From a virus: a stretch of 32,965 nt of DNA. The stretch lies in IMG/VR virus record IMGVR_UViG_3300034106_000075, positions 1 to 32,965 of that record. The stretch is one strand, 5' to 3'. Positions 12,104-21,386 of this stretch are shown piece by piece. Position 1 is the stretch's first letter, and each line of letters begins with the position of its first letter. The notes beneath the pieces were generated by a model that was not told the DNA's origin, searched no databases, and saw only the letters and a program-made list of their open reading frames with translations. Made by a program: the position numbers and the translations under genes.

Positions 12104-12304
12104 CTAAAAAGGTATTTGATCCCATTCCCAATGCTCGCACTCAACCGTGCCGGTGATCCACTCTAGCGGTGGTTTGGCGCCAAACTGCTTACACATTCCA
12201 ACTGCAAAGTTGTTGCACTGTTGGCAATTTACTTGTATCGAATTTACTTGCTTGACCTGGCTGTCCAGATGCCTCTTGATTGCGTTCAGTTCTATCAAAT
12301 TCAT
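12104..12304 (-). CDS. Small cysteine-rich (probable zinc-binding) protein
   Basis: This is a 66-residue protein. The N-terminal helix LIELNAIKRHLDSQVKQV is followed by VNCQQCNNFAVGMCKQFG and then VECEHWEWDQIPF. The CxxC, single C and CxH set could form one zinc site. The IPF ending is common in phage replication proteins and may be an interaction tail. An SD-like GAGG lies about nine bases upstream of the ATG. The first 116 bases overlap the helicase 3' end in a different frame. Both readings look genuine, with the helicase reading forming only its unconserved-looking tail. Confidence 0.7.
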   Translation of the reverse strand: MNLIELNAIKRHLDSQVKQVNSIQVNCQQCNNFAVGMCKQFGAKPPLEWITGTVECEHWEWDQIPF

Positions 12305-13904
12305 AATCTTTTACCTCTGTGTATTTTCCGTTTTTGCGGGTTGCAATTCTGATTGGCTCATTGATTTTTCGTCCTTGCAAGTAGTCAAGCGCCATCTGAG
12401 TGCCAGACGGCATGACCATTTTGTCGCGCTTTAACCACCAGTCCTGTGCCTTTTGCTTGGGGTAGCCAACGTGGTTAAAGCACACCCACTCGCTGGCCAC
12501 GCGCAACAGGCCGCTGTAGTAGTCAACCCTCATGCTGTCTGGCTTGCCTTCTTTCCTGTGCATGGCGTAACCCACCTTAGTGATGTCGTGCCACACCAGC
12601 TCGGCCATGGCCGTCTGGCTTGACAAGAGCGCAGCATAAGAAACCTTGGCATCCATCGGCTTGGCTTCTTCTTCCCTAATCGTGCCGCCGCAATGCACAC
12701 ACACCATGGCTGCTGGCAAGTTGCGCTCACCGCAGTCTGGGCAGATGCTGTAGGGCGCCTCTTGTGTGCCTGACTTTTTCTTGGCCTTGCCTTGGATCGT
12801 GTCCACCGGCCCCAAGCGCTCCACGGTGTCGGTAAAGTCAAGCACCAGGCAATCTGTCTTGCCGTCTGCAATGCGTGTGCCTCGGCCCATCCCCTGCACA
12901 TAAAGCACCGGCGACTTGGTGGGCCTGCACCAGACAATGCAGTCCACATCTGGCACATCAAAGCCAACTGACAGCGCCAGCACGGTGACTAGGCAGTGAA
13001 TCTGGTGACTCTTAAACTGAGCAATCAAATATTCGCGCTCTTGCTTTGGTGTCTCACCGCACACAACAGCGCTCACAATGCCAAGTTCATTTAGCTTGTC
13101 TGCAAGGCTTTCAGCGTTATCGACACTCGGTGTGAAGGCGATCCATTTCTTGCGCTCTGAGGCGATCCTAGTGGTTTCTGTGGCCACTTTGGCAAGGTAT
13201 TTCTCAACCTCGCGGGATAGTTCGCCAACCTTGTAGTCACCGTTTGAAATGCCAACATGGCTGGCATCGATGCGGGTGCTGATTCTCTCAGCTGGTGGAA
13301 CTAACGGCGCAATAAACTTCTGCTCAAGCAGCTCACCCATGGACACACGGCTTGCAATGCCAGTGAACAATGGATCGTCACCGTCAGTTAGCCAGACTTG
13401 ATTGCCCCTAAATGGCGTGGCCGTCATGCCAACTATGCGAAATTTGCATAACTCTCCGAGCTTAGACAAGAAAGTGCGGTACATGCCTGCGTCTCCTGCC
13501 TTCTGGCTCACTAGGTGAGCCTCATCGATCACCACGGCCTTGATGTTGCCAAGCAAGTGCGCGGCCTTGTGGATGCTGCCAATGGTGGCCACAATCACAT
13601 CGGCGTTGTACTTTTTTGTGCCCAGGCTGGCGCTGACAAAGCCCACGCTGATGGTGTGGGGCAGTAAGGCTCTGAGCTTGGCCGCATTCTGCTCGGCCAG
13701 TTCTTTGGATGGAACCAGCACCACAGTGCGCGGGTGATAGTCTGGCCACTGATCCCACATCTGGCGCACAATCTCAGCGCAGATCACCGACTTGCCGGCG
13801 GCGGTGGGCAACACCAAAAGAGGGATGTCGGCCTCCTCGGTATGTTTTGTCCACCAGGCAAATAAGTCAGACACTGCACGGGATTGATACTCACGCAGTT
13901 TCAC
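12189..13904 (-). CDS. SF2 DEAD/DEAH-box helicase
   Basis: The 571-residue protein has the full superfamily 2 motif set: Walker A PTAAGKS at 33-39, DEAH at 127-130, TAT at 161-163 (motif III), and QGMGRGTR at 337-344 (motif VI). A zinc ribbon follows, with Cys388, Cys391, Cys402 and Cys405 (CPDC...CVHC). It would unwind DNA or remodel replication or recombination intermediates using ATP. GTG at 13904 is chosen over a TTG at 13919 because GAGGAG lies seven bases upstream. It overlaps the preceding 52-residue gene by 14 bases. The last ~35 residues are overprinted on the cysteine-rich gene. Confidence 0.92.
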   Translation of the reverse strand: MKLREYQSRAVSDLFAWWTKHTEEADIPLLVLPTAAGKSVICAEIVRQMWDQWPDYHPRTVVLVPSKELAEQNAAKLRALLPHTISVGFVSASLGTKKYNADVIVATIGSIHKAAHLLGNIKAVVIDEAHLVSQKAGDAGMYRTFLSKLGELCKFRIVGMTATPFRGNQVWLTDGDDPLFTGIASRVSMGELLEQKFIAPLVPPAERISTRIDASHVGISNGDYKVGELSREVEKYLAKVATETTRIASERKKWIAFTPSVDNAESLADKLNELGIVSAVVCGETPKQEREYLIAQFKSHQIHCLVTVLALSVGFDVPDVDCIVWCRPTKSPVLYVQGMGRGTRIADGKTDCLVLDFTDTVERLGPVDTIQGKAKKKSGTQEAPYSICPDCGERNLPAAMVCVHCGGTIREEEAKPMDAKVSYAALLSSQTAMAELVWHDITKVGYAMHRKEGKPDSMRVDYYSGLLRVASEWVCFNHVGYPKQKAQDWWLKRDKMVMPSGTQMALDYLQGRKINEPIRIATRKNGKYTEVKDYEFDRTERNQEASGQPGQASKFDTSKLPTVQQLCSWNV

Positions 13905-14049
13905 GGCTGCGCTCCTCAATCATTTTGTCTGCAATAGCGTAGGCATTTTCCACAGCTGTCTTTCTGTCGCCATTGGCCAACAAGCCAGTCAGGGCTGCGG
14001 CGGCCAGATAGTCTCTAAGGGTAATGTCTTGGATTGGGGGCGTGTTCAT
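13891..14049 (-). CDS. 52-residue small conserved phage protein
   Basis: ATG 14049 encodes MNTPPIQDITLRDYLAAAAL followed by TGLLANGDRKTAVENAYAIA and a charged end. The LRDYxAAxALxGLLA...AYxxADxMI pattern is widespread in small phage early proteins, usually annotated as hypothetical. The start overlaps the nuclease stop (ATGA), and its 3' end overlaps the helicase start by 14 bases and contains the helicase ribosome-binding site (GAGGAG). It is predicted to be all-helical. It may act with the helicase or nuclease between which it lies. Confidence 0.7.
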   Translation of the reverse strand: MNTPPIQDITLRDYLAAAALTGLLANGDRKTAVENAYAIADKMIEERSRETA

Positions 14050-15134
14050 ACGAACCTTCCGTTGTGTTGTTTGCGCAGTTCAAGCGCCTGTTGGTCAACC
14101 AACATCACTTTGTCTTTGCAAGCATGAATTTCTTGGCTGCTGATAAAGTCAGGGCGAAACTCTGGGTCACCGTTGACAAACTTTTTGCCATCGGCCATTT
14201 GGTAGACGATGCTGTTGTCGTGGGTTCTGTCAATTGGCGTGGCCGTCTTGGCAAGCAGAATGGGGATGTACCGATGACGGTCGCAACCCTTACGCTGATC
14301 TTCTGCGGCCAAGTCAATCTCATGGCTGTTGCATGACCATCTGCCTTGGCCGTCCATCTCTGGTGTGGCGTGAACGCATGAACGGCAAGTCGGGGCTGGT
14401 ACGTCTGTGCCGTGGCAGATCGCCTGGTAATCACAGAACTTGCACTCAAACCATGTGGGGTCAGTCGATATGCCAACTGGTGGCTCAACGCTGGTTATCA
14501 CCGCCATGGCCTTGTCGATCAGCTTCTGAGCTTCGTCAGCATCAAACTCCAAGCGCTCAGTGTAGATGTCGTCATTGTCTTTGTTGACCACCAGATAGAG
14601 TGCCCTGCGGCATCCGTCCTCGCCAAACTGATCAATGCTCCACTTCATGTATATTTGCATCTGCGCGTAGTGTTCGGGCTTGGCCTTCTTTACGCCAGAT
14701 TTTTGCATTTCCTTGTACATCTTGTCAGATGCTGTCTTTATCTCCAGTATGTGCGGAGACTTAGGCGCCTGCGGCAAGCCAACAATAATGCCGTCAGCGT
14801 TGCCTTGGAAGTGGTGGCCAGTTGTGCTTTCGCTGAATGACCACTGCTTGCCGGTGGTTGGGTTAATCTGGTAGACCGTGCAGCCAATGCTTGCCAAGTC
14901 TTGATAAACCCTTGGCTCTTGTAAGTGGCCAGACTGAAACACTCGGTACAAGCGGCCAGAGAACTCGGCAGGCTTAGCCCATCTAAATGAGTACCAGTGC
15001 TGGCGCAGGCAAGGCTTACCAATGGCAGAGGCGCCAAGGTAAGGGCGCTGCGCTTCCGCGCCATACTTTGCCTTGTAGTAGGCAAAGATGGCATCGGCCA
15101 CAGGATCAGTAACTGATTGTGGTAGCAGGGCCAT
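14046..15134 (-). CDS. PD-(D/E)XK nuclease, Cas4/RecB-like with probable Fe-S cluster
   Basis: The protein has 362 residues. The nuclease core shows FQGNADGIIVG (Asp114), LEIKTASD (Glu131, Lys133) and a Q-motif AQMQIYMKW (~157-165), the order expected for RecB-family exonucleases. Cys42 (GKPCLRQ) and the CKFCDYQAIC cluster (Cys231, 234, 240) reproduce the one-plus-three cysteine layout that holds a 4Fe-4S cluster in Cas4 and AddB. A second set (Cys250, 253, 268, 284) may hold zinc. It likely resects DNA ends for recombination with the Sak4-like ATPase. It starts one base after the DUF669 gene ends and is coupled to the 52-residue gene. Confidence 0.88.
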   Translation of the reverse strand: MALLPQSVTDPVADAIFAYYKAKYGAEAQRPYLGASAIGKPCLRQHWYSFRWAKPAEFSGRLYRVFQSGHLQEPRVYQDLASIGCTVYQINPTTGKQWSFSESTTGHHFQGNADGIIVGLPQAPKSPHILEIKTASDKMYKEMQKSGVKKAKPEHYAQMQIYMKWSIDQFGEDGCRRALYLVVNKDNDDIYTERLEFDADEAQKLIDKAMAVITSVEPPVGISTDPTWFECKFCDYQAICHGTDVPAPTCRSCVHATPEMDGQGRWSCNSHEIDLAAEDQRKGCDRHRYIPILLAKTATPIDRTHDNSIVYQMADGKKFVNGDPEFRPDFISSQEIHACKDKVMLVDQQALELRKQHNGRFV

Positions 15135-15135
15135 G

Positions 15136-15642
15136 TCAGCCTTTCCGTGCCCATGCGGGTGCTTTGGACTTGGCGGCTTCTTGCTCGGCTGTTGGCCATG
15201 CAGGCGTGTCGGCTACTGGTGCTGGTGCAGCAGCTGGTGCGCTGAAACCACCGGCAGACTCATAGCCCTTGATGTTGTTGCTAGCCTTGTACTGGCCTTG
15301 TGCCTCGCGCACAGTCACGCTGATGCGAACTGGCTTGAAGTGCAGGGCGGCAGTGTCCATCAACTTGATCACGTTTACAGCGTGGCAAAGCGCAGACAAC
15401 TGGCTCTGTGCAATGCGCTGGGTGTCTTCGTTGCTGTGGCGAATGTTAAGGTTCTCCCAAACCTTACGGCCTTTGAACTGGCCATCCATGATTTCAAAAG
15501 TCAGCTTCAAGCCCTCACCGTTGCCAGACTTTAGTGGCTGCACATCGGACTCGGTGATGTGTGCCAGGTATGTGCCGGCAGGCAGTGGGCCTGTAGATGC
15601 TTGGGGAGCGACTTGGGATGCGTCAAAATTAAACTGAGCCAT
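15136..15642 (-). CDS. DUF669 family protein (probable single-strand DNA-binding or recombination accessory)
   Basis: The protein has 168 residues. A beta-rich core at ~18-120 (LPAGTYLAHITESDVQPLKS, LKLTFEIMDGQFKGRKVWEN, LNIRHSNEDTQRIAQSQLSA) is characteristic of DUF669. The C-terminal ~45 residues are A/P-rich with a basic tip (SKAPAWARKG), similar in layout to an OB-type SSB with a flexible tail. In many phages DUF669 genes lie between a RecA-like ATPase and a nuclease, as here. That context supports a single-strand-binding role but does not prove it. An AGGA ribosome-binding site precedes the ATG. Confidence 0.82.
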   Translation of the reverse strand: MAQFNFDASQVAPQASTGPLPAGTYLAHITESDVQPLKSGNGEGLKLTFEIMDGQFKGRKVWENLNIRHSNEDTQRIAQSQLSALCHAVNVIKLMDTAALHFKPVRISVTVREAQGQYKASNNIKGYESAGGFSAPAAAPAPVADTPAWPTAEQEAAKSKAPAWARKG

Positions 15643-15680
15643 GATAATTTCCTAAAAAGTTAAGTTACGAACTGGGGTGA

Positions 15681-16427
15681 TCAAGACTGCGCCTGAGTAA
15701 GCGCTGCTTGGAATGCCGTCCAGTCAAGCGGCATATTCTGAAGGCCAAAGCGGTTGCCACCGCAGTGAGCCGGATGTGGTTCAACGTGCAAGATGCGCTC
15801 ACCAGTGGTGGTGGCCTTGGTTTCCTTTTTAGAGAACCCTGCGTCTGTCTTGCTCGTAAAGATGCGGTAGCCTGCGTAGCCAATAACGTCAGCCCATTCT
15901 TGCACCAAGCCAGCGGCCTTGTCGTGCAGTTTAAGGACATGGCTGTCATAGCCCTCGGTCAGCGGGTCTTCAATGCGCTTGATCTTGTCGTGCGCAATCA
16001 AGATGATGCCCATGCCCTTGGCAGAGCGCAAGACCTCAAGGCCAGAGAGCAAGTTGCGCCATTCCTCGGCAGCGGCCACATAACCCTTACCAAAGCCTGG
16101 CTGCTCGATGTTCTTCCAGTTGTTCTGCTTGCACACATATTCTTGGATCATTGGCTCAAGCCAGTCGAGCGAGTCAATGAACAGGGTCTGGAAATCATGT
16201 TGTTGGTTGATCAGCGTGTCAATGGCCGCATAGACTTCTGGCAGACTGGATGCCAGTGGGAAAGCGTTTGCGTCTACAGCGTCAGCGCCGTCTTCGGTCA
16301 GGATGCCAATGGCGTTGGGCGCCATGGCCGCGAAAGTTGTCTTGCCAATCTTGCCTTGGCCAACCACAACAATCTTGGGTGAGCGTACACGTTTGGTTTT
16401 GGAAATGGAGGATAGATCGAATGCCAT
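15681..16427 (-). CDS. Sak4-like RecA-fold ATPase (AAA_24)
   Basis: The protein has 248 residues. Walker A GQGKIGKTT at 23-31 and Walker B TLFIDSLD near 81-88 sit in a RecA-like core. IILIAHDKIKRIEDP in the middle matches the conserved strand of this family. It resembles phage Sak4-type single-strand annealing ATPases, which work with an SSB. The DUF669 gene and a RecB-like nuclease immediately downstream complete a plausible recombination module. It lacks the long N- and C-terminal domains of true RecA. The start is one base after the stop of the preceding gene (TAA-C-ATG), with only a weak ribosome-binding site, suggesting coupled translation. Confidence 0.87.
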   Translation of the reverse strand: MAFDLSSISKTKRVRSPKIVVVGQGKIGKTTFAAMAPNAIGILTEDGADAVDANAFPLASSLPEVYAAIDTLINQQHDFQTLFIDSLDWLEPMIQEYVCKQNNWKNIEQPGFGKGYVAAAEEWRNLLSGLEVLRSAKGMGIILIAHDKIKRIEDPLTEGYDSHVLKLHDKAAGLVQEWADVIGYAGYRIFTSKTDAGFSKKETKATTTGERILHVEPHPAHCGGNRFGLQNMPLDWTAFQAALTQAQS

Positions 16428-18289: not shown

Positions 18290-18508
18290 ATGAACACACA
18301 AATACCCCCAGATGAGCGCCGACAACTGGCAGAAAAAGTTGGCATAAACGAGCAATATCTTTACCAGTGCCTTACTGGCCGGCGTGAGATGTCAGCATGG
18401 GAGGCCGTCAGAGTGGAGCAGCAAAGCGAAGGCAGGCTCACTCGAAAGATGGTGTGCCAGGGCAGCTGGCAGTCTATTTGGCCAGAGCTGGTGGAGGCAA
18501 AAGCATGA
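18290..18508 (+). CDS. Cro/YdaS-like helix-turn-helix regulator
   Basis: This is a 72-residue DNA-binding protein. DERRQLAEKVGINEQYLYQC followed by LTGRREMSAWEAVRVEQ forms the helix-turn-helix typical of the YdaS/Cro group. The C-terminal TRKMVCQGSWQSIWPEL is also characteristic. The ATG at 18290 is used; a TTG nine bases upstream would only add MRP. It is the first rightward gene and shares a 180-base divergent region with the leftward operon, where repeated GCTAGA half-sites overlap both candidate promoters. It is therefore the probable switch protein controlling early versus replication transcription. Its stop overlaps the primase-helicase start (ATGA). No partner CI repressor is present. 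Confidence 0.85.
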   Translation: MNTQIPPDERRQLAEKVGINEQYLYQCLTGRREMSAWEAVRVEQQSEGRLTRKMVCQGSWQSIWPELVEAKA

Positions 18509-20565
18509 GCAATTTAACTTCTATTTTTCCCAACGGCTTTGCGGCTGCCACAGAGAGCCAAGACCTGATTAACCCAGAGGAAGGGTTTCGCCGTCATTGC
18601 GAGGCAGCTGGCCTACTGATCAAAGACCAGATCATTGCTGACGGTGAGATTCACCGTGTGGCGCATGTGTCGAGCAAGAAGGGTGCGCTTGATGGTTGGT
18701 ACATCTTGCACACTAGTGGCAAAGTGCCAGTGGGCATTGCAGGGTGCTGGAAAGAGCCAGTGTTTGAAGCCAAGTGGGTGGCAGATACTGGCCGTGCAAT
18801 GTCGTTCACTGAGCGCTTTGAGCATGACAAGTGGGTGGCAGAGGTTAAAGCCAAGAAAGATGCAGACAGACTGGCTTCGCAGGCGGTGGCTGCCGAGCGT
18901 GCAGAGGATGAGGTGGGAACGTATGCGGATGCAAGCAATGACCATCCATACCTTGTGCGCAAGCATGTTGGCGCTAACGGTATCAAGATTGACCGTGCAG
19001 GCAGGCTGGTTGTGCCAGTGATCAATCAGGCTGGCGAGATACTGAGCTACCAAACCATTGATGCAGATGGCAATAAGCGATTTCTCAAAGGCGGCAAGAT
19101 CGAGGGCGGGTTCTATGAGTTGCGTGGTAACCGCAAGATCGTGTTCATTGGTGAAGGGTTTGCCACATGCGCATCGATCCATGAGGCGACTGGCTACACC
19201 GTGTTGGTGGCATTCGACTGCGGCAATCTGGCCAAGGTGGCCAAGAGCGCCAAGGAGATGTTCCCAGGCTCCAAGATCGTGATCGGTGCAGACAATGACC
19301 AGTTCACCGAGGGCAACCCTGGCGTCACTAAGGGCCGTGCAGCTGCGGCGCTTGTGTTTGGTGAGATTGTGTACCCATCGTTTTCTGATTCGGACATGGT
19401 GGACAACAAACCTACAGACTTCAATGACCTTCACTGCTTGCAAGGCTTGGATGCCGTCAAAGAGCAGATCGAGCGCGTGGCAGGGCCAATGAAAGACAAA
19501 CTGGCGTTTGAGTTCAGTCGGGCAGATAGCCTGCAACTGACCCAAATCAAATGGATCGTTGACGACTACATCGAGGCAGATTCCCTTGCGCAAGTGTTCG
19601 GTGATCCAGGCGGCGGTAAGTCTTTCGTCAGCATCGACATTGCCTGCTGTGTGGCCACAGGCCGTGCCTGGCATGGCCATGAGGTTAAGCAAGGTAGCGT
19701 GTTCTACATTGCCGGCGAAGGCCACAATGGTTTGGCCAGACGGTTTAAGGCATGGCAGATTGGCAACGGCACGAGCTTGGACGGTGCGCCACTGTACAAG
19801 AGCCACCGTGCGGCGCAGTTGTATGACGCGACTGAGGCTGCGGTGGTGGCTGAGTCAATTAAGGAATTGTCTGCGCAGGCGGGAACTGTGCCTAGCCTGA
19901 TCATCATTGACACCCTAGCGCGTAACCATGGGGGGGATGAGAACAGCACCCAAGACATGAATGCGTTCATTCAGCACTTGGATACCTACTTGCGCCAACC
20001 ATGGAACTGCTGCGTTCTGGTGGTGCATCACTCTGGCGTGGCTGATAAGGATAGGTCTAGGGGTAGCACAGCACTGAAGGGCGCACTGGATGCGGAATAC
20101 CGATGCCAGCTGGATTCAGGAACCAAGACCATAGCGTTTGAGTCCAAGAAGATGAAGGACGCAGAGATGCCTGCGCCTAAGAACTTTCAGATCACGCAAG
20201 TGGACTTGCCAATCCAAGACAAGCACGGTTTGGCGGTCAAGGGTGCGTACCTGACGGCGGTGGACATTAGCGGCCTGATGGGCAACATCCAAAAGCGGGT
20301 GATCCTGTCAGGCAACCAGCGCATTGCGCTGAACTGTCTGGTGGCCATTGAGGTTAAGAGAGCAGCAGACGGCATTGAGGGTTTTGCGGCCATGGTGGAC
20401 TATGACGAGTGGCGTGATTCGGCCAAAGAGCATGGTTTGAATGCTCGCCGGTTCAAAGAATCCATGGAGGCATTGGTTAAGAAAAACATGGTTTTGGAGA
20501 ATGCGGAGATGTACCGAACTGTACCGAAATGTACCGAAATCGGTACAGAACGTACAGAGGGTTGA
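18505..20565 (+). CDS. Bifunctional primase-helicase (Toprim + RecA-like ATPase)
   Basis: The protein has 686 residues from ATG 18505 (ATGA overlap). The Toprim domain spans about residues 205-300: GEGFAT with the catalytic Glu near 217, and GADND at 261-265. A RecA-type helicase/RepA-like ATPase follows: Walker A GDPGGGKS at 366-373, AGEGH, Walker B LIIIDTLAR near 465-472, and HHSG near 507. Residues 1-130 look like a primase-associated DNA-binding domain without a clear zinc finger. It would prime and unwind at the phage origin. The last ~18 residues (starting YRTVPKCTE) are encoded by the GTACCGAA iterons, much as lambda iterons lie within the initiator gene O. Confidence 0.9.
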   Translation: MSNLTSIFPNGFAAATESQDLINPEEGFRRHCEAAGLLIKDQIIADGEIHRVAHVSSKKGALDGWYILHTSGKVPVGIAGCWKEPVFEAKWVADTGRAMSFTERFEHDKWVAEVKAKKDADRLASQAVAAERAEDEVGTYADASNDHPYLVRKHVGANGIKIDRAGRLVVPVINQAGEILSYQTIDADGNKRFLKGGKIEGGFYELRGNRKIVFIGEGFATCASIHEATGYTVLVAFDCGNLAKVAKSAKEMFPGSKIVIGADNDQFTEGNPGVTKGRAAAALVFGEIVYPSFSDSDMVDNKPTDFNDLHCLQGLDAVKEQIERVAGPMKDKLAFEFSRADSLQLTQIKWIVDDYIEADSLAQVFGDPGGGKSFVSIDIACCVATGRAWHGHEVKQGSVFYIAGEGHNGLARRFKAWQIGNGTSLDGAPLYKSHRAAQLYDATEAAVVAESIKELSAQAGTVPSLIIIDTLARNHGGDENSTQDMNAFIQHLDTYLRQPWNCCVLVVHHSGVADKDRSRGSTALKGALDAEYRCQLDSGTKTIAFESKKMKDAEMPAPKNFQITQVDLPIQDKHGLAVKGAYLTAVDISGLMGNIQKRVILSGNQRIALNCLVAIEVKRAADGIEGFAAMVDYDEWRDSAKEHGLNARRFKESMEALVKKNMVLENAEMYRTVPKCTEIGTERTEG

Positions 20566-20697
20566 TGTACCGAAGCATGTACCGAAATGTACCGAAACGT
20601 ACCGAAATGTACCGAAGCAAACCCCCCTTGGTGTACCGAAACGTACCGAAAGGGTATATAAACCCTTCGGGTTTCGGTACAAAAAAGGTTTCGGTAC
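20511..20697. repeat. GTACCGAA iteron array, candidate replication origin
   Basis: Ten direct GTACCGAA copies start at 20511, 20521, 20531, 20567, 20579, 20589, 20599, 20609, 20633 and 20643. Degenerate GTACAGA copies lie at 20543 and 20552, and inverted copies (TTCGGTAC) at 20673 and 20690. Many are spaced exactly 10 bases, one helical turn. GTACCGAAA at 20643-20651 and TTTCGGTAC at 20672-20680 form the arms of a larger inverted repeat. It encloses an AT-rich TATATAAA and an inner AAACCC-TTC-GGGTTT hairpin (20660-20674). The array begins inside the primase-helicase gene and fills the following 171-base gap. Initiator-binding iterons are the best explanation. Confidence 0.72.
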
Positions 20698-20736
20698 ATA
20701 CCGGCGGGTTTTTGAGTGTTTTTAAGGAGAATTGAG

Positions 20737-21042
20737 ATGAGATCAAAAAAGGTAAAAATGTGGTGCGGAAATCCACCAGATGATCAAATGTGGAGCAAGG
20801 TTTGTGATCTTGGAAAGTTTGATGGGATCGGTTGGATGATGTATTCCAAAGTGCCTGATGCTGACAGTCCGTGGCAAAGTTTAAAGTTGGTGGCGGATGG
20901 GGTAGTGCCAGGCAAGGCGAACTACAGACTTGCATGGAACGGGGAAAGGTTTGCCCTGCATCCAGACTTTGTGTCGCTTCAAGAGTTTAGGCCGGCATTG
21001 GCCAGAGCAGTTAACAGAGCGCTTGATAAGGCCGTTGCATGA
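20737..21042 (+). CDS. 101-residue protein following the iteron array, function unknown
   Basis: ATG 20737 is preceded by AAGGAG at a seven-base spacing, which decides it over a GTG at 20716. The product begins MRSKKVKMWCGNPPDDQMWS and has FDGIGWMMYSKVPDADSPWQ, a strand-rich middle with YRLAWNGERFALHPDF, and a C-terminal helix (EFRPALARAVNRALDKAVA). It is basic at both ends. It is the first gene after the candidate origin and is coupled to the RusA-like gene (ATGA). A replication accessory role fits the position, with no motif evidence. Confidence 0.65.
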   Translation: MRSKKVKMWCGNPPDDQMWSKVCDLGKFDGIGWMMYSKVPDADSPWQSLKLVADGVVPGKANYRLAWNGERFALHPDFVSLQEFRPALARAVNRALDKAVA

Positions 21043-21386
21043 TCGAAGTCGAGATGGACATGAAGATCGTGTCCGTGGCCAACATGCGGTTGCATTGGGC
21101 GGCCAAGGCCAGACTGGTGAAGTCGCAAAGGCAGAAGACCAGAATGGCACTGGCAGCTGTTGCACAGTCCTATGGCGTTGAGATACTGCCAGTCACCGTG
21201 GTGTTGACTAGGGTGGCTCCAAGGAAGCTGGACGGCGACAACTTGCAGTCGGGGTTCAAAGCGGTCAGGGATGGTGTGGCTGACTGGCTTGGCGTGGATG
21301 ACGGGAGCAGCATGATCGAGTGGCAATATTGTCAGCGCTCTGGTGGCCCGAAAGTTTACAGGGTTGAGATCGAGGTGATAACATGA
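21039..21386 (+). CDS. RusA-like Holliday junction resolvase
   Basis: This 115-residue protein is the size of RusA. The signature RKLDGDNLQSGFKAVRDGVA supplies Asp65, Asp67 and Lys74, with Asp87 or Asp88 in LGVDDGS giving the third acid, the expected DxDN...K...D layout. It would cut branched recombination or replication intermediates before packaging. It follows the replication genes and precedes terminase, a usual place for phage resolvases. The beginning (IEVEMDMKIVSVANMRLHWA) is the first strand and substrate-binding helix of the fold. Confidence 0.82.
   Translation: MIEVEMDMKIVSVANMRLHWAAKARLVKSQRQKTRMALAAVAQSYGVEILPVTVVLTRVAPRKLDGDNLQSGFKAVRDGVADWLGVDDGSSMIEWQYCQRSGGPKVYRVEIEVIT

Follow-up and report, generated by a model that had tools for sequence, protein, structure and literature searches.

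Here, we describe an array of short repeated sites at the 3' end of a primase-helicase gene in the IMG/VR virus record IMGVR_UViG_3300034106_000075, positions 1 to 32,965 of which were analysed (hereafter the window, 32,965 bases, to whose numbering all coordinates refer). In our judgement, the array quite probably supplies the iterons of a replication origin that is read by the product of the gene immediately upstream, a primase-helicase, by means of its predicted C-terminal winged helix. We infer that the primase-helicase binds the array, that its helicase is loaded there, that the site is active as an origin and that a hairpin within the array has a role in this. An initiator-bound iteron origin had already been proposed in the initial annotation of this DNA; while origin activity itself remains at the level of that proposal, the reading has gained from the conservation of the array in all 78 close relatives, from the switching of array and protein C-terminus together, and from a link between array and predicted recognition helix in a second protein family.

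The array is composed of copies of the iteron GTACCGAA grouped around the hairpin, with the following elements.
20511..20538, + strand: three iterons with 10-base spacing, inside the primase-helicase gene (exact GTACCGAA count and translation).
20539..20550, no strand assigned: two overlapping degenerate copies, inverted GTACCGAT at 20539-20546 and forward GTACAGAA at 20543-20550 (one-mismatch scan).
20567..20616, + strand: five forward iterons with spacings of 12, 10, 10 and 10 bases (exact count).
20633..20650, + strand: two forward iterons with 10-base spacing, adjoining the hairpin (exact count).
20647..20670, no strand assigned: covarying short hairpin with an AT loop, core at 20650-20667 (DNA fold and covariation).
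20673..20697, - strand: two inverted iterons, 20673-20680 and 20690-20697, beyond the hairpin (exact count).

All 12 exact copies of GTACCGAA in the window, ten forward and two inverted, fall within 20511-20697, compared with a mean of 0.38 and a maximum of 2 copies in 100 dinucleotide-preserving shuffles of the window. With up to one mismatch there are 26 matches, of which 14 belong to the array (the 12 exact and the two overlapping degenerate copies) and 12 are scattered elsewhere at about the frequency expected by chance (mean 13.9 for the whole window). Measured from start to start, the ten forward copies are spaced by 10, 10, 36, 12, 10, 10, 10, 24 and 10 bases, six of the nine spacings being exactly 10, and the array begins within the final codons of the primase-helicase (stop codon at 20563-20565). 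The initial annotation had listed ten exact, two degenerate and two inverted copies, many at exact 10-base spacing and the first of them within the primase-helicase coding sequence, and the counts agree with it on each point, the first three copies lying in the last codons of the gene. Random scatter of the repeat through the genome, which it had named as a check, is contradicted by the confinement of the exact copies to the array. Its placing of an AT-containing inverted repeat at the end of the array was mistaken, as two inverted iterons sit beyond 20650-20667. Inspection of the sequence also shows A/T runs together with the AT-looped hairpin near 20656-20730.

The gene and the parts of its product that concern the array are as follows.
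18505..20565, + strand: primase-helicase gene with Toprim_3 and AAA_25 domains, 686 amino acids from the likely start (Pfam, PHROG, profile and Foldseek).
20311..20520, + strand: C-terminal domain modelled as a winged helix, residues 603-672, and proposed to read the iterons (AlphaFold2 model and structural matches).
20440..20481, + strand: predicted recognition helix region, residues 646-659, NARRFKESMEALVK (AlphaFold2 helix 647-659 and class-dependent residues).

The open frame spans 18397-20565, and its M37, at 18505, is the most likely start because homologues align from there. Pfam assigns Toprim_3 (2.1e-9) and AAA_25 (7.7e-38) to the protein, and PHROG matches it to DNA primase (1.2e-69). 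A profile built from 38 relatives found one distinct protein by sequence in the Protein Data Bank, the RSF1010 helicase RepA (1g8y, 4.4e-8), and the top Foldseek match was the T7 gp4 primase-helicase (5ikn), followed by RecA-fold proteins including RepA. The last 70 residues were modelled as a winged helix both in the full protein and alone (predicted template modelling score 0.69 when alone), with helices at 603-621, 633-641 and 647-659, strands at 663-666 and 669-672, and predicted local distance difference test values of mostly 77-90. Structural neighbours of the isolated domain were mostly winged-helix domains, with VIA-align Z scores of up to 10. The fold of the domain is predicted to be a winged helix, and its recognition helix is predicted to determine the specificity of array reading; residues 646-649 vary with the class of the array (described below), being mostly N[AS]RR in class A, KSNR in B, DYRR in C and ARNR in D. 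In the intragenic iterons TAC CGA ACT GTA CCG AAA reads Y-R-T-V-P-K, and two perfect iterons at a distance of 10 bases (20512-20529) encode these wing residues, so that the class A DNA site and the protein wing share sequence. This coding stretch may have given rise to the iterons.

The close family of the protein was gathered from IMG/VR, where 113 stretches carry the paired pattern GTACCGAANNGTACCGAA and 208 encode relatives of the primase-helicase, 80 of which were kept. The sequence set comprised 195 entries (the window, six loci of the window itself and 188 others), with a primase match in 176, and 175 primase frames (139 full-length) yielded 78 distinct full-length proteins for analysis. 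An array was present within -100 to +1600 of the stop codon for all 78, in line with a further check of the initial annotation, retention of the array in related phages. Four array classes were distinguished by their units: A (GTACCGA, 57 proteins), B (TTACCGAAAC/GAACCGAAAC, 19), C (GCACCGA, 1) and D (GTCCGGA, 1). Across 75 distinct arrays, 390 of the 743 start-to-start intervals of up to 60 bases were exactly 10 bases. The array is specific to the primase-helicase locus: 94 of the 113 stretches with the paired pattern contain the primase, and the remaining 19 are either cut contigs with the array beside a RusA-like gene and the small terminase gene terS (7) or stretches with at most three copies and no array (12).

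Co-switching was assessed in 1187 protein pairs with at least 94% identity over residues 1-585 (the N-part), C-termini being counted as similar at 75% identity or more. The array class was the same in all 661 pairs with similar C-termini and in none of the 526 pairs with different C-termini, and similarity of the arrays correlated with that of the C-terminus (r 0.84) and not with that of the N-part (r 0.002). Despite near-identical N-parts, proteins of different array classes are only about half identical over residues 590-672; the window protein and that of the locus L161, for example, are 99.7% identical over residues 1-585, yet differ in both C-terminus and repeats. On the tree of N-parts the classes are scattered, with 17 changes by parsimony, and its starred branches require group A to have changed class at least five times. 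The stretch exchanged between the window and L161 can be delimited as follows.
20277..21036, no strand assigned: exchange cassette of C-terminal domain, array and hairpin (here also gene 20737), without DNA homology between the window and L161.

Homology between the two ends 286 bases 5' of the stop codon and returns 475 bases past the stop in the window and 183 bases past it in L161, just 5' of the RusA-like gene. Exchange has occurred on both flanks of the cassette and none was seen within it, even at the ten loci where 0.8-1.3 kb is inserted between domain and array and the coupling of the two is nevertheless kept. From these sequence comparisons we propose that the C-terminal domain and the array form a specificity cassette, swapped as one unit among otherwise near-identical phages. 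The inserts of 0.8-1.3 kb lie between the first iteron or iterons and the main array (L132, L134, L173, L148, L156, L169, L038, L184, L087 and L009). The insert frame of L184 is, we presume from its translation, PAPS-reductase-like, and other insert-bearing loci begin with a different frame (MIHYHGLPITPATVAVK...). Insertions may occur preferentially at the edge of the array.

Between the last forward pair and the inverted iterons lies the inverted repeat AAGGGT-ATATAA-ACCCTT (20650-20667), and the DNA fold of 20630-20705 has a z of -4.9. The hairpin pattern was present in 57 of 57 class A and 19 of 19 class B arrays, and was identified by eye in classes C and D. Among 15 distinct hairpin sequences, seven of the nine pairs had changed on both sides, with 30 double-change cells against 9.5 in shuffles (reached in 0 of 500) and at most 8 when partners were slid. 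Retention of the structure while the sequence changes suggests that the element acts through its folded form, whether a single-stranded DNA or RNA hairpin or a cruciform, and not as a protein-bound sequence. A classical rho-independent terminator was considered and rejected, there being no T-run directly after the hairpin, and the only terminator-like site on the + strand (20691-20704) is a different stem.

A second family was assembled from proteins like that of Alteromonas phage XX1924, which are about 32% identical to the window protein, with 80 further loci. An array lies 3' of the gene at 44 of these 81 loci, with more than ten different units. For 41 of the 44 (omitting L198 and loci with a low-complexity top 7-mer), the partial correlation of array with C-terminus given the N-part was 0.68 (reached in 0 of 2000 permutations), and that with the N-part given the C-terminus 0.04. 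When 14-residue windows were slid along the proteins for 21 distinct arrays out of these 41 loci, the top windows covered the turn and recognition helix (0.50-0.57), with a peak of 0.57 at the predicted recognition helix that was reached by 0 of 1000 permutations; the best value in the enzyme body was 0.23. Palindromes with stems of at least 7 were found in 23 of 43 array regions, compared with 3 of 43 gene bodies and 19 of 215 shuffles, and their loops were often TATA or TTTA; the 43 distinct regions omit L278, L251 and L209 and include six loci without a clear array and L288, which were added by hand. Among ten annotated phage records, five (XX1924, 1N2-2, CGphi29, CRP-406 and CRP-811) have an array directly 3' of the gene, and these isolated phages use other units than the window in the same place.

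Several observations weigh against an origin read by the C-terminal domain. The Foldseek E-values for the isolated domain are weak (0.055 or higher), and since domain and array are adjacent, co-transfer by linkage accounts for part of their coupling; linkage could even be the sole cause of the co-transfer. At 37 of the 81 second-family loci there was no array at the threshold used, some of them having degenerate repeats or short flanks, and a large clade with ..MMLKK C-termini showed no array within the sequence available beside the gene; three of the ten annotated phage records lack an array and two are ambiguous. When each unit was represented by a single array (n=14), the windows over the helix reached 0.44-0.46 and residues 550-563 were higher (0.52), and localisation of the array link to the recognition helix is suggestive rather than final. 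A switch of GC skew at the array, a check put forward in the initial annotation, did not materialise: the skew was 0.141 over 3 kb to the left and 0.144 to the right, and the cumulative skew had no extremum there. Three other genomes likewise had no skew extremum at the array, the minimum in XX1924 being about 2.4 kb off and the extremes in CRP-811 and CRP-406 lying near the record ends. The skew result neither supports nor refutes an origin, because skew in small phage genomes strongly follows transcription. The array-less clade, ending in ..GMMLKK or similar (L206-L208, L211-L215, L217, L220-L224, L232, L233, L237, L246-L249, L252, L254, L255, L258, L259 and L263), may use another origin or a distant array.

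The array could instead be an operator through which the winged helix of the primase-helicase regulates its own transcription or that of the downstream RusA-terminase-portal genes, replication starting elsewhere. We consider this unlikely, although winged helices are common among regulators, the array stands between early and structural genes, the GC skew gives no origin signal at it and a weak terminator-like site overlaps its last inverted iteron. The array keeps to the 3' end of the primase-helicase, whereas the gene that follows varies (as in the ten insert loci and in the occurrence of gene 20737 in 11 of 57 class A loci), a single promoter-like site in 20400-20900 is about the shuffled mean, and a sequence reader fused to a helicase suits loading better than repression. 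A regulatory array for the rightward transcript, the alternative offered by the initial annotation, is by the same evidence judged the less likely. It is very improbable that the repeats have no bound partner and are a fast-evolving tandem repeat carried along with the neighbouring coding sequence by recombination. Domain and array are indeed adjacent and slippage could spread 10-base units, but exact copies stand amid divergent spacers, inverted copies lie past the hairpin, the coupling of array and domain survives the 0.8-1.3 kb inserts, and the link between protein and array in the second family is strongest at the recognition helix.

That the reader is another phage or host protein seems slightly less probable still. 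The co-switching tests covered only some phage genes, which leaves room for such a reader, but in those cross-class pairs that contain them TerS, the large terminase TerL and the RusA-like gene do not track the array class, and a host reader is hard to square with several classes among near-identical phages. Of the two binders suggested in the initial annotation, the primase-helicase fits and the product of gene 20737 was discarded, being mostly absent (11 of 57 class A loci and 0 of 21 loci of other classes). Least probable of all is that the array serves the nearby Sf6-type small terminase as its packaging (pac) site. Sites of small terminases are often in or near terS, which here starts about 700 bases downstream of the array. 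The array does not, however, follow the terminase, because the window and L161 share TerS (100% identical) and TerL (99%) yet differ in array class, and family-wide it tracks the C-terminus of the primase; membership among pac sites was rejected on this ground.

The origin read by the C-terminal winged helix can be set beside known replicons. In the pri-rep-ori modules of Staphylococcus aureus pathogenicity islands (SaPI) and other phage-inducible chromosomal islands (PICI), the origin likewise lies directly 3' of the initiator gene, two iteron sets flank an AT-rich stretch, and primase and initiator are sometimes fused, an origin organisation described as unique to PICIs in the passages of PMC6092414 on which we draw. 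The succession of forward iterons, AT-looped hairpin and two inverted iterons in the window matches this layout, but here it occurs in phages with terminase and portal genes, and the helicase is a RecA-fold AAA_25. The Rep of SaPI is a helicase of a different type from AAA_25, and the window, unlike a satellite, encodes a large terminase (PHROG phrog_2) of its own together with P22-like portal, tail and scaffold genes. The alpha protein of P4, acting at ori and crr, unites a Toprim-type primase, a helicase and a winged helix that binds the origin repeats (PMC4234260, in the sections concerned). The window protein matches this architecture with Toprim_3, AAA_25 and a modelled C-terminal winged helix. 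The helicase of P4 alpha, however, belongs to superfamily 3 (SF3), whereas that of the window is AAA_25, RepA- and T7 gp4-like and not SF3; the P4 origin-binding domain was not among the Foldseek or VIA-align matches shown for the isolated domain, which does not speak against a relationship. Natural co-switching of domain and array is a new observation relative to P4 alpha.

The IncQ plasmid RSF1010 has at its oriV a RepA-type helicase, iterons and short stem-loops (single-strand initiation sites, ssi) for priming, but divides the work among three proteins, RepA, RepB' and RepC (as described in part of PMC4234260), where in the window a single polypeptide comprises primase, helicase and proposed reader. 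Differences extend to the primase type, the iteron and the hairpin, and the window protein appears to have a RepA-type helicase, judging by the profile match to 1g8y (4.4e-8) and the fold match. Lambda O is neither a helicase nor a primase. In ori-lambda and the origins of Shiga toxin (Stx) phages the initiator gene also contains the iterons, which lengthen its reading frame, but they are found mid-gene rather than at the 3' end (according to portions of PMC7466680). RepA of the phage satellite PLE binds iterons at its own origin, but is an unrelated RepA_N protein with an N-terminal DNA-binding domain (so the relevant text of PMC7145576). ORF904 of plasmid pRN1 is a primase-helicase with a C-terminal winged helix, and a stem-loop directly 3' of its gene is needed for replication and conserved by structure and not by sequence; it differs in its archaeo-eukaryotic primase, SF3 helicase and 100-base stem-loop, compared with the short one here, and iterons do not feature in the passages on it in PMC4234260. 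With repeated short sites beside an initiator-type gene, coupled to its C-terminal domain, the locus has the look of an iteron origin. The system resembles the SaPI/PICI, P4 and RSF1010 replicons, but its helicase type, protein architecture or element type sets it apart from each of them.

In the mechanism that we propose, several copies of the primase-helicase would bind the 8-base iterons, many of which are one helical turn apart and would present the same face of the DNA. Binding would position the RepA/T7 gp4-like helicase ring beside the AT-looped palindrome flanked by inverted iterons, and the palindrome would open to a hairpin on one or both strands, offering a loading point for the helicase and a start for the Toprim primase, after which host or other replication proteins would take over. 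A wider and distinctly more tentative idea is that one polypeptide (Toprim primase, RepA-like helicase and iteron-reading winged helix) might do the work of the three Rep proteins of RSF1010 at an iteron-plus-hairpin origin in a large phage group, and that selection might keep changing the DNA address by swapping recognition-helix/iteron cassettes, much like incompatibility types. Speculatively, such switching perhaps prevents titration or hijack of the initiator by co-infecting relatives, satellites or host-borne origin copies; the abstract of a study of ectopic lambda origins (PMC4488673) concerns interference of that kind. If the idea is true, the many natural pairs would approximate a recognition-helix code.

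The first conserved gene downstream does not belong to the cassette.
21039..21386, + strand: RusA-like gene, which does not follow the array class.

We take its product to be RusA-like; it had no Pfam or PHROG match. It is 94-97% identical in seven of the eight cross-class pairs listed and 29% identical in the eighth. The small gene at 20737-21042, inside the cassette, likewise had no Pfam or PHROG match. On the - strand, divergent from the primase-helicase, 12189-16427 holds DNA helicase, Cas4-type exonuclease, single-stranded DNA-binding protein (SSB)-like and Sak4-like genes, which suggest that recombination-dependent replication may also operate. Further along the same strand, 10691-11320 matches PHROG 3704 (2.2e-73), a 'ferredoxin' family filed under moron and auxiliary metabolic genes.

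A nucleotide search with the array gave no match in 50,697 phage and 72,556 plasmid records, and a scan of genome contigs with the primase-helicase gave two weak Bacteroides matches (27-29% over about 110 residues) and no host or close prophage. The database searches found no cultured close relative. Among openly licensed literature we found no paper describing this array, which does not imply its absence from print.

The finding yields two predictions for an uncharacterised group of phages with hundreds of metagenomic relatives, namely the starting point of replication and the domain responsible for reading it. The natural pairings of a recognition helix with its DNA address, of which there are many, can be used to learn how winged-helix domains read DNA, and near-identical phages that differ mainly in the cassette make the relation of origin specificity to co-infection compatibility directly testable. 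If the reading is true, the PICI-type organisation of origins would extend to phages with a different helicase.
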